Shown one piece after another: positions 16,917 through 20,694 of a stretch of DNA of 26,625 bases (position 1 is the stretch's first letter; every line of letters begins with the position of its first letter). Origin of the DNA: a virus; the IMG/VR virus record IMGVR_UViG_3300032294_002548, positions 1 through 26,625 of that record; one strand, given 5' to 3'. The notes under the pieces are model-generated. The model was not told the origin of the DNA. It was given only the letters and a program-made list of their open reading frames with translations, and made no database searches. The position numbers were made by a program, and so were the translations under genes.

Positions 16917-17058
16917 ATTCTTGTTTTTTGATTTCTTGCAACTGTTTGATGTCTCTTTCAGTTGATCTATTATTATGTTTTAAGTTATATTTCATTAAGC
17001 CAATCGCTATAAGTATAACACAAATGAATATAAGTAAGTGTTTAAAGATGTCTTTCAT
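16837..17058 (-). CDS. Small type-II membrane protein, possible inner-membrane spanin
   Basis: A 73-residue protein with one N-terminal membrane segment (about residues 5-23, KHLLIFICVILIAIGLMKYN) followed by a charged helical tail (RSTERDIKQLQEIKKQEYEK). This is the layout of an Rz-type inner-membrane spanin, though shorter than usual (120 residues or more). The ATG at 17058 shares its base with the last base of the terL stop codon, and its 3' part overlaps the secreted 109-residue gene by 80 bases. Together the two small genes may form a lysis pair that acts on the outer membrane. Family membership is not certain from sequence alone. Confidence 0.55.
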   Translation of the reverse strand: MKDIFKHLLIFICVILIAIGLMKYNLKHNNRSTERDIKQLQEIKKQEYEKTIQHIDTVHIDSVQKLLTNPSLY

Positions 17059-18377
17059 TATACAATTCTGAATGTTGTTTTTTTAACTGAACTATTATTT
17101 TTAACTTGATAACAATAAAACAAGAACGTATCAACAAAATCAGGTGAATGACCTAATACTTTTTTCATATCATCTTTATTTGAAACATTATCACCAACCA
17201 TTGTTATTGATTTTAATTCACGTCTTATTCTATCTTTTAATGTTATACCATTTATAATCATATTTTCAAATTCAGGCAATATAACTATTTGATTTTGTTT
17301 TAAATAAGATGTTAATTCTGTTCTAAGTTTTTGGGTCATGTTGAACGGTGTATAACCATAACGTCTTAGATCAAGACCACTACCAACACCGCTCGCATCA
17401 TAAATAACATTTTTAGATTTAATTTTATGAGTCATAACAAGTTCATTAATCTGATTAGTTATACTTGTATTATCAGATATGTTCTGAAAACGTAAATCAA
17501 TTAATACATTACCATCAAAAACTGAAAATACAGTTAAGTCTTTACCTGTTGATGCAATATCTACACTTAGTATCTTTGTATTATTTTGATTAGCATAAAC
17601 AATATCAAATAAATTATCTAAATAGTTATGATCAAAGAATCTATTATCTAATTGATCATAATACCAATCACCCATCATTCTTGCTAATGTTGCCTCATTC
17701 TTATTCTTACTTAAATTAGATACATAATCACTTGCTAAGTTATCAATGTTATCTTCAAATGTTGCTGATACGAACTTGATTGATTCATCTAATTCTTGCT
17801 TTAAAAAAGGCTCATAGAAGCGATCTCTTAACCAGTTGTCGCTTGGGTTACATGTTAGTAATATCTTGTTCTTAGCTACTGTATTTGATCTAACACGAGC
17901 AGTTAGTACTTCAAATGCTTTCTCTGTTATACGTTGTGCTTCATCTATCAGTAAATAGTCAATGTTTGGCCCATTTAAATAGTTAAATTCTGGGTCTGAT
18001 GGTCGTGGTGAACATTCAACAAGCATAATGCTTGATTGATTATATGTACATCGAATAACATCATCTTTTGAATCTAAGTTAAATCTAATAACATCTTTCT
18101 TATAAGCTTTATTAATGATACTAGCAATCTTTATAATTTCTGGGTATATAACAGTTCTTAGACTTTTGATAGTTGATGATGCAATCATTATCTTAAGGTT
18201 TCTTCGTTTATTTTGCATGATTTGTTTAACGCAGAAGTATGCTGATAAGAATGACTTACCACCACCCATAGCACCCCCATAGACGATGATATAACTATCT
18301 AAGTCAGTTAGATAATCATAAGCTAACTGTTGCTTTCTATTAAGCTCTATAAGTCTTTTATTAGAAGTTGATTTCAT
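17058..18377 (-). CDS. terL: Terminase large subunit
   Basis: A 439-residue DNA-packaging motor with ATPase and nuclease domains. Walker A is GGAMGGGKS at residues 34-42, Walker B is YLLIDEAQRI with Asp145 and Glu146, and the coupling motif is ILLTCNPSDNW (172-182). In the nuclease half the metal-binding acidic residues are in ILSVDIASTGKD (Asp273, Asp280), NVIYDASGVGSG (Asp327) and GHSPDFVDTFLF (Asp413, Asp416). All key residues are present, so it should be active. It packages phage DNA into the prohead through the portal and makes the cuts. It overlaps the small-subunit-like gene by 17 bases and is followed with no gap by the two membrane protein genes. Confidence 0.97.
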   Translation of the reverse strand: MKSTSNKRLIELNRKQQLAYDYLTDLDSYIIVYGGAMGGGKSFLSAYFCVKQIMQNKRRNLKIMIASSTIKSLRTVIYPEIIKIASIINKAYKKDVIRFNLDSKDDVIRCTYNQSSIMLVECSPRPSDPEFNYLNGPNIDYLLIDEAQRITEKAFEVLTARVRSNTVAKNKILLTCNPSDNWLRDRFYEPFLKQELDESIKFVSATFEDNIDNLASDYVSNLSKNKNEATLARMMGDWYYDQLDNRFFDHNYLDNLFDIVYANQNNTKILSVDIASTGKDLTVFSVFDGNVLIDLRFQNISDNTSITNQINELVMTHKIKSKNVIYDASGVGSGLDLRRYGYTPFNMTQKLRTELTSYLKQNQIVILPEFENMIINGITLKDRIRRELKSITMVGDNVSNKDDMKKVLGHSPDFVDTFLFYCYQVKNNSSVKKTTFRIV

Positions 18378-19029
18378 CAGTATTCAAATTATCATTTATA
18401 TCTTCTAAACGTGATTTAAGTACATCACGTTTAACATCAGCAAGTGTCATTTTATTGTTCTTTAAGAAGTCATCATATTGTTTAAGCACTTGCAGATATT
18501 GTTTCTTATCATCTGAATATTTAAGTTCATCAATTAACTCTACATATCGTTTATGTTGATTAATAGCTAGTACTAGACTATTCTTCATCATCTGTAAGCT
18601 AAAGTAATATTCAGCACATTCTTTATTCTTCATTACAGTCATTTTAAACTGATACTTGTATGTTGAAGACGATGTGTTGCCGGGTCTTATAATATCAAAT
18701 GCTTTTGTAACATCATTTGTTTCTGCAAGTGCTTCAATATAGTTTTGTATTGTGCTGTCAGAAAAGTCAATTTTTGGTATCTTAAAGCCGGGGCCTTGTG
18801 ATTTTCTCTTTGTTAAATTTGTTTCTGTCTGATTTATTTCTGTTGAATTATTTGTATCTAATTCATCAGTTTCTATATCAAAAATTTCTGTCTGATTATT
18901 TCTATCAGATAATTTACTTTCTGTAAGATTTATTTCTGTATTAGAATTTGAATTAGACATATTACTTTCTGTGTTAAGATTTTCTGTCTTAACTTTTCTG
19001 TCTTTAGATTTTGTTTGTAGTCTAATCAT
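18361..19029 (-). CDS. Terminase small subunit-like protein with a repeat-built N-terminus
   Basis: A 222-residue protein just upstream of and overlapping terL. The part from about residue 78 looks like a terminase small subunit: GFKIPKIDFSDSTIQNYIEA, then LAETNDVTKAFDIIRPGNTS, where an 'Y.eal..t.dv.kA....' helix-turn-helix precedes a helical oligomerisation part (YVELIDELKYSDDKKQYLQV and onward). The first 77 residues are low-complexity 16-residue repeats (14-29, 30-45, 46-61, 62-77), built of TE, NLTE, STEIN and similar. The DNA under them is the 48-bp-period heptamer array that continues upstream past the start codon. The true start is therefore uncertain: Met1 (19029) lies inside the array and Met24 is an alternative. 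The role would be to bind pac DNA, load TerL and set the first cut. Confidence 0.7.
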   Translation of the reverse strand: MIRLQTKSKDRKVKTENLNTESNMSNSNSNTEINLTESKLSDRNNQTEIFDIETDELDTNNSTEINQTETNLTKRKSQGPGFKIPKIDFSDSTIQNYIEALAETNDVTKAFDIIRPGNTSSSTYKYQFKMTVMKNKECAEYYFSLQMMKNSLVLAINQHKRYVELIDELKYSDDKKQYLQVLKQYDDFLKNNKMTLADVKRDVLKSRLEDINDNLNTDEINF

Positions 19030-19327
19030 TTCTGTTAAATTATTTCTGTCTGTTTATTTTCTTTCTGTCTTGAGAATTTCTCTATTAAAATTTCTGTAGA
19101 ATTATTTTCTCTCATTAGATTTCATCTCTTTCTGTAAGATTTATTTCTGTCTGAAAATTTCTCATTAAATAATTTCTTTCTGTCTTGAGAATTTCTCTCT
19201 AATTATTTCTGTGTAATTCTTTTCTTTCTCTTATCAGATTTTGTTTCTGTGTTAAGATTTTCTGTAGCAGAATTTGTGTCTAATTCATTTGTTTCTGTGC
19301 TATCAGTTTCTGTTATAGCATTTGTAT
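18803..19327. repeat. 48-bp-period TTTCTGT heptamer array, candidate pac site
   Basis: The plus strand has 20 exact TTTCTGT heptamers (ACAGAAA on the coding strand) between 18822 and 19313, plus variants such as TTTCTAT, TTTCTCT and TTTGTAT. Spacings are almost always 15, 14 and 19 bases, which sum to 48. Starts at 18822, 18870 (variant), 18918, 18966, 19014 (variant) and 19062 are exactly 48 apart; two more tracts (19129/19177 and 19244/19292) repeat this after phase shifts. The array covers the 5' third of the terS-like gene, the 173-base gap and the 3' third of the preceding gene, so it ignores coding boundaries. Direct repeats of 26 bp (19058-19083, 19173-19198) and 22 bp (18966-18987, 19244-19265) lie within it. 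Confidence 0.9.
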
Positions 19328-19583
19328 CAGTATAGATATTATCTATATCATCTGATTCTATATCAATATTCTCTATAATTGGTTCTGATAAAACTGAATT
19401 AACCCAGTTTCTGACAGCATCTACTACTCTAGCTACGCATGTACTACAGCTAGTCATCTTTTTATTCATATTTAATTGACTATTAGCAACTTGAAAAAAC
19501 AACTTACGTTGTTCATAAGTAATCATTTGCATTTTATCAATCTTATTTAACTCAATTTGCAGTTGTAAAGCTAGTTCTTTCAT
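19203..19583 (-). CDS. Unknown 126-residue protein with CxxC and repeat tail
   Basis: I do not recognise this protein. Residues 1-65 form a helical domain with a short Cys pair (TSCSTCVARVVDAVRNWVNS, Cys at about 46 and 49), reminiscent of small zinc-binding or packaging-region proteins that precede terS in Bacteroidota phages. The C-terminal part (about 85-126) is the same low-complexity repeat as in the terS-like N-terminus: ETDSTETNELDTNSATEN followed by LNTETKSDKRKK. The peptides ENLNTE and ELDTN occur in both proteins, and the DNA under ENLNTE is identical over 22 bases. The ATG at 19583 has a long leader with GACTATTAATATTAATAAC. It may help terminase bind DNA, but this is a guess from position. 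Confidence 0.65.
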   Translation of the reverse strand: MKELALQLQIELNKIDKMQMITYEQRKLFFQVANSQLNMNKKMTSCSTCVARVVDAVRNWVNSVLSEPIIENIDIESDDIDNIYTDTNAITETDSTETNELDTNSATENLNTETKSDKRKKRITQK

Positions 19584-19995: not shown

Positions 19996-20694
19996 TTAAT
20001 CATTGATCAAATTATTTTTATAAAGTTTGGCAACTCTTGCTAGTACTTGATGTTTGATGTCTAGCTTGTTTAAACTGTCGTAATACTTGAGATAGTATTT
20101 AATCTTCTTTCTAAGTAATGATAGATTAGTTCTGTCAATTTGCTGATGATAGACTTCTTTCTTAGATCTTGTAATATAAGTGATTACTTCTTTTAATTCA
20201 AACTCTGTGAGTATTTCTGATAGTTTATTTATTAGCTCTTGAGTCTCAGTTTTAATTTCATTACTATCGAATAAATGATAATATAGTTTATTGTCATTTA
20301 ACTCTATGTCTTTAAGCTCATAATTAGCTTCTAACGCTTTGTTTTGATAATAAGTATAGTGAGTATCAATATCGTTTTCTAAAGGCTTATAATCGTTTCT
20401 ACGAGCATTCTTGATCTTATTACTGATGATTACATACATGTAGTTTTTGAAGATGTATGCATTAGTTGTTTTTGATGCTGTGTACTTGTCAAAATTGATT
20501 TTATAAATCTCTAAATAAGCGTTATTAATCGCTTCTTCAAATTCTTCTTTTGTTAGATCAAAGTATTTATTTTTGAATCTTGAGTATTCATTTTTAAGTG
20601 TATTCAGAAGTATTGCAGTCATGCACTCTTTTGATTTAAGATCATAACTATAAAGATCTCGTTCTTTCTTTATTGTTGTCTGTTTGCTTGTCAT
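19996..20694 (-). CDS. Sigma-factor-like protein
   Basis: A 232-residue basic, helical protein with the layout of a small sigma-70-family factor. Residues 45-100 resemble region 2: FDLTKEEFEEAINNAYLEIY, KINFDKYTASKTTNAYIFKN and YMYVIISNKIKNARRNDYKP, where 'd.eea...vy..iy....f' and '.f..yl..i..N...n.rR' are the usual pattern. Residues 150-205 resemble region 4: a helix, LTEFELKEVITYITRSKKEV, and RTNLSLLRKKIKYYLKYY as a recognition-like helix. If real, it would direct host RNA polymerase to phage promoters, a common way to switch on late genes. The gene is followed by packaging and structural genes, consistent with that. It is divergent, and a non-sigma DNA-binding protein is possible. Confidence 0.5.
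   Translation of the reverse strand: MTSKQTTIKKERDLYSYDLKSKECMTAILLNTLKNEYSRFKNKYFDLTKEEFEEAINNAYLEIYKINFDKYTASKTTNAYIFKNYMYVIISNKIKNARRNDYKPLENDIDTHYTYYQNKALEANYELKDIELNDNKLYYHLFDSNEIKTETQELINKLSEILTEFELKEVITYITRSKKEVYHQQIDRTNLSLLRKKIKYYLKYYDSLNKLDIKHQVLARVAKLYKNNLIND

Follow-up and report, generated by a model that had tools for sequence, protein, structure and literature searches.

We found that a short motif, repeated directly about 33 times, forms a regular array on the minus strand of the viral DNA analysed here (the window, 26,625 nucleotides), and that this array runs from the 3' end of a 126-codon open reading frame (ORF) through a gap into the 5' third of a terS-like gene. As the initial annotation had noted, the array disregards gene limits, since it spans the end of an ORF, a stop-bearing gap and the terS-like start. 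It is well supported that selection in the array acts on nucleic acid rather than on protein, and we regard the array as a multi-site recognition element, probably one for a DNA-binding protein. As our leading reading, it may be the pac (or cosB-like) site of the phage, to which we give a substantial but less than even chance and for which we infer the identity of the 222-aa protein as TerS, its binding to the boxes and the initiation of packaging. The features concerned are as follows.

18803..19327, minus strand: about 33 boxes forming the motif array (minus strand T-N3-ACAGAAA, plus strand TTTCTGT-N3-A), in a 14-15-19 cycle of 48 bp
19203..19583, minus strand: 126-aa ORF, whose C-terminal 40 or so residues are encoded by the array
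19030..19202, minus strand: inter-ORF gap of 173 bp in which each of the three minus-strand frames contains stops; 11 boxes, 7 of them exact
18361..19029, minus strand: terS-like gene, 222 aa, putative role from its position beside terL and its helical layout
18949..18960, minus strand: second candidate terS start, with the ATG at 18960 overlapping the inverted-repeat arm TGTCTAATTCA
17058..18377, minus strand: terL, large terminase (Terminase_6N / Terminase_3, phrog_979)

The exact heptamer TTTCTGT was present 20 times on the plus strand within 18822-19313, compared with five same-strand copies in the remaining 26 kb (4376, 9179, 10329, 12872 and 21136) and a single copy on the opposite strand of the window. 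When variants were included, 33 boxes were counted in minus-strand order from 19327 down to 18809, all facing the same way on the transcribed strand, and the minus-strand spacing between them cycled through 14, 15 and 19 bases, which sum to 48. Autocorrelation of the segment, a check proposed in the initial annotation, gave 48 as the top lag (0.57), and position arithmetic identified six exact 48-base steps connecting the boxes at 18809, 18857, 18905, 18953, 19001, 19049 and 19097. The recount and the arithmetic therefore bore out the earlier description of 20 exact heptamers with 14/15/19 spacing and six 48-base steps. In the upstream part (19135-19327), the 48-base steps were retained in a shifted register; the steps were irregular (23 and 19-19) where the parts join. 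A tandem duplication of 115 bp was found inside the array. The array was the sole dense site cluster in the 26.6-kb window. The three-box pattern TTTCTGT-N8-TTTCTGT-N26-TTTCTGT, which has 15- and 33-base steps, occurred three times in the window and in none of 100 window shuffles, and a chance origin of the array was rejected on this basis. Under a first-order Markov model of the array, the commonest simulated heptamer had a mean of 4.9 copies, whereas 20 were observed. A count of 22 was reached in one of 2000 simulations, under a null that leaves low-complexity words possible.

Comparison of the copies revealed that the boxes were 78-93% identical, whereas the spacers were 40-46% identical, with 31% expected from composition. 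In particular, the 12 coding boxes that are read in frame as Thr-Glu all carried T at offset -4 (12/12), a wobble position in codons that specify seven amino acids (Ala, Asp, Ser, Leu, Val, Asn and Phe), and all carried A at offset +6, the seventh base (12/12), although this is the first base of T, N, S or I codons; offset +7 was random in the same boxes. The naive probabilities of these two invariant positions, 6e-5 for the T and 1e-5 for the A, are indicative and not exact because the copies are related by duplication. From the invariant T and A, the motif is therefore T-N3-ACAGAAA, given on the minus strand as TNNNACAGAAA, with 16 occurrences inside the array and two in the rest of the window. 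Boxes in the gap had a mean of 0.45 mismatches each, compared with 0.50 for those in the upstream ORF and 0.71 for those in terS, so that the gap boxes were kept as well as the coding boxes. The exact boxes in the gap occupied all three frames (2/2/3), which agreed with the earlier statement that the heptamer is used in more than one reading frame. The initial annotation had concluded from such features that selection acts on DNA; its nucleotide-level part was upheld by the box conservation, the wobble T and the first-base A, although selection at the RNA level would also be compatible with these observations.

These comparisons also bear on two readings in which the boxes are not recognised as nucleic acid. 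The array could be a protein-level repeat, namely a 16-aa coding repeat (TExxxTExx.DxN...) forming an acidic disordered tail, whose middle was recently frameshifted. Consistent with this, one 16-aa register is common to the end of the 126-aa ORF and the beginning of terS (TETDSTETNELDTNSA and TEIFDIETDELDTNNS), the in-frame boxes encode Thr-Glu, and the copies are tandem-duplicated, including the 115-bp unit. However, the constraint in the array did not track the reading frame as that of a coding minisatellite would: the boxes were kept equally where no frame is open, every 48-bp unit contains an additional box in another frame, and the invariant wobble T and codon-first A are not explicable by protein constraint. 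A constraint on protein only was rejected on account of these two bases, and we consider the protein-level reading improbable. Alternatively, slippage and duplication could have produced a neutral, functionless minisatellite, and tandem duplication does link the copies, but decay would strike boxes and spacers alike, whereas the spacers are near random and the boxes and their spacing are kept. The difference in identity between boxes and spacers led us to reject a neutral repeat, which is highly improbable.

Two ATG codons of the terS-like gene, at 19029 and 18960, retain the conserved part of the protein, and both are located within the array; part of the array must therefore be translated as an unstructured head. 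The array encodes residues 1 to about 75 of the terS-like protein, which are predicted to be disordered. In a single-sequence model of the 222-aa protein (mean pLDDT 53), the first 90 residues were disordered, while residues 92-215 were helical, with two short helices followed by long helices. The gene fits a small-terminase layout, as it lies immediately 5' of terL, overlaps its 5' end by 17 bases and encodes short N-terminal helices followed by long ones. On the basis of gene position and the helical model, the 222-aa protein is likely to be the small terminase (TerS). The protein had no Pfam or NCBIfam match and a non-significant PHROG match, a fold search with the single-sequence model gave no usable match, and single-sequence scans of IMG/VR found no homologue. 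The TerL profile weakly matched, over a C-terminal stretch only, 'Gene 2 protein' PDB chains (4ife, 4idh, 5c10 and others; 2.6e-5) as its nearest sequence relatives of solved structure; we take these chains to be Sf6 gp2, a headful terminase. The best TerL matches in the phage collection were to Bacteroidota phages (about 27%), and the nearest named phage was Nonlabens phage P12024S, with 35% for the capsid protease and 24% for the portal.

The array lies within the first third of the gene that directly precedes terL, a location in or next to terS/terL as expected of a pac site, and its nucleotide-level constraint holds irrespective of coding, as would also be expected. We propose that selection on nucleic acid would keep the 33 or so direct copies of the 11-bp motif at distances of 14, 15 and 19 bp, while ribosomes would read through the array and so produce the unstructured tails of both flanking proteins. 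Multiple molecules of the small terminase, or of another protein whose gene lies beside it, may bind the boxes; the bound protein would mark the concatemer and recruit TerL, which would make its first cut near or within terS.

Several known packaging sites resemble the array in part. The pac site of phage P1 consists of short repeats inside the gene of the pac-cleaving small subunit, namely seven hexanucleotides with Dam sites within about 160 bp. The present repeats likewise lie in part inside a putative small-subunit gene, whereas the P1 site has no regular 48-bp lattice. In phage lambda, cosB contains three R sites to which the small terminase, encoded nearby, binds with IHF-assisted bending; this is similar to the present array in having several copies of a short motif near the small-terminase gene, although lambda has far fewer copies. 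The SPP1 pac site comprises three sets of direct repeats that span promoters and the beginning of terS (PMC4737164), and it overlaps the coding sequence of the gp1 DNA-binding domain (PMC6316719). SF6 TerS shows little sequence specificity when it binds pac, and how TerS chooses pac is debated (PMC4737164). The array resembles the SPP1 and SF6 pac sites in placing direct repeats over the start of the small-terminase gene beside terL, in both non-coding and coding DNA. It differs from SPP1 pac, which has a few repeats each of boxes A, B and C, in that a single motif is repeated about 33 times along a 48-bp lattice, and from SF6 pac in that the box sequence itself is conserved. The initial annotation had named the array a candidate pac site in or next to terS; the location and the SPP1 precedent spoke for this proposal, and a role in packaging is plausible.

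If the array does direct packaging, it would be a version of a known type of element, unusual in its length and regularity. To our knowledge, known pac or cos elements are far shorter than this array of 33 boxes and 519 bp, which counts against packaging. Packaging signals are known in detail for just a handful of model phages, and the array would be a convenient system for studying how a terminase or another phage protein counts and spaces its sites. Additionally, DNA-level selection that overrides coding in two adjacent genes bears on the annotation of such protein tails.

It had been suggested earlier that the regular steps suit a ring of TerS subunits wrapped by DNA. The phase analysis did not support this suggestion: at periods of 10-11 bp, the box positions had a vector strength of 0.02-0.06 and thus no phase coherence, and the dominant AA period in the array was 16.2 bp. 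With steps of 14, 15 and 19 bp, consecutive boxes face different sides of the helix. A TerS ring wrapped by DNA with phased contacts was therefore rejected, and an arrangement in which all boxes face one ring with the DNA wrapped around it is unlikely; a flexible DNA-binding domain, or a filament instead of a ring, would be needed. On a more speculative reading, which we consider unlikely, the array would be a new kind of packaging or recognition element, in which about 33 equivalent sites make up a long lattice with a fixed 14-15-19-bp rhythm off helix phase. The protein reading it would be a phage protein that forms filaments or lattices and not a ring. Such a lattice would have grown through terS and its neighbour, with the site translated as the disordered head of its own recogniser.

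A further reading is that a protein on the DNA boxes, or a factor on the mRNA sequence ACAGAAA, controls the transcription or translation of terS and the late operon. The single orientation of the boxes on the transcribed strand is compatible with such an operator or RNA target, and both candidate terS start codons come shortly after boxes. Moreover, a perfect 7-bp hairpin encloses the box at 18987, the array contains a perfect 11-bp inverted repeat (TGTCTAATTCA at 18949-18960 and TGAATTAGACA at about 19277-19287), and its fold surpassed those of shuffled sequences. The RNA fold of the array had a z-score of -5.7 against plain shuffles, which shrank to -3.9 against dinucleotide shuffles of the spacers with the boxes fixed (0 of 200 as good); several control stretches also reached z -2 to -3. 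However, the absolute folding energy was weak (-72 kcal/mol, whereas other stretches of 525 nt gave -85 to -103 kcal/mol), the hairpins varied from one unit to the next, and the local structure was barely above that obtained by permuting intact spacers (16 of 150 equally good). Much of the fold z-score was due to words that recur in the spacers. Since the score shrank under nulls that preserve boxes and spacers, structured RNA was rejected as the main signal. An RNA target would not need the strict 14-15-19 spacing, Rfam gave no match for the array, and 33 sites would be excessive for an operator. We therefore consider control by an operator or RNA target rather unlikely.

The strongest rival to the packaging reading, although an unlikely one, is a replication origin in which the boxes are iterons: a phage initiator would bind the direct repeats and melt neighbouring AT-rich DNA. 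Phage lambda O, for example, binds iterons inside gene O. Gene-embedded direct repeats are typical of phage origins, as in SPP1, where oriL lies inside gene 38 and is bound by gp38 (PMC6316719). The array shares this embedding with SPP1 oriL and the lambda origin, but their repeats are few and are bound by the initiator from that gene, whereas here the gene holding most of the array directly precedes terL. The plus-strand GC skew was negative from 1 to 19.5 kb and rose to around zero or higher at about 19.5 kb, just past the array, although the genes remain on the minus strand up to 23.3 kb. However, this shift coincides with the boundary of the late-gene block, so that transcription could account for it. 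Additionally, no distinct AT-rich unwinding region was apparent, and family searches recognised no initiator, helicase or primase beside the array, where many neighbours are without annotation.

The array might also be a centromere-like partition site of a phage-plasmid. Plasmid centromeres, such as the heptad arrays of omega proteins and the sites of ParR and TubR, are built of many short direct repeats. On the other hand, family searches covering most window proteins found no ParA-, ParM- or TubZ-like gene, and the array is located at terS and not beside partition genes. We judge this reading very improbable.

The N-terminal part of the 126-aa ORF contains a short NKK..C.TCVA motif common to proteins upstream of terL in L130 and L127; the latter proteins have an additional cysteine-rich N-terminal part that the 126-aa ORF does not have. 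A 232-aa protein (19996-20694) showed a weak sigma-70 family match (E 4e-4, under the curated cut-off), and a sigma-70 region 2 protein is likewise annotated upstream of terL in phage P12024S. Sigma-70-like promoter matches were fewer than the shuffle mean.

Across the collections searched with TerL profiles, the closest TerL had about 32% identity. No close relative was found by single-sequence TerS and TerL scans of IMG/VR, by the TerL profile scans or by a P-loop pattern scan, nor among 397 genomes of one family, and the array pattern was absent from 395 genomes of the phylum. A blastn search of the array against phages gave only short matches that carry no weight. Among 218 distant TerL relatives, dense heptamer clusters were not enriched near terS (4 of 23 clusters, in 14% of windows), and site clusters at terS are thus no general rule of the group.

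Two distant parallels were found, both of which are weak hints in favour of the packaging reading. The exact three-box pattern occurred in only one other IMG/VR contig, the unrelated L361 (50% GC), where it sits at the terS/terL junction, a placement with a prior chance of about 2%; this is a single case within coding sequence, and its 15+33 spacing was demanded by the search itself. Some of the L361 copies resemble a recent 33-bp duplication. Between terS and terL of this contig (13649-13745), seven CTGT(G/T) copies were observed at 11-, 12- and 22-bp steps in helical phase, two of which are similar to DnaA boxes (TGTGGATAA). The other parallel is a distant TerL clade (L058, L072 and L082), in which the 700 bp or so preceding each member's own terS contain 9-13 copies of TAAACAA. 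In these three related Bacteroidota-type contigs, GTAAACAA clusters (1200-1650 in L058, 6790-7180 in L072 and 7090-7450 in L082) occupy a long intergenic region directly 5' of terS and are possibly a pac/cos or origin element. The GTAAACAA copies were present in both orientations and were frequently paired 9-10 bp apart.
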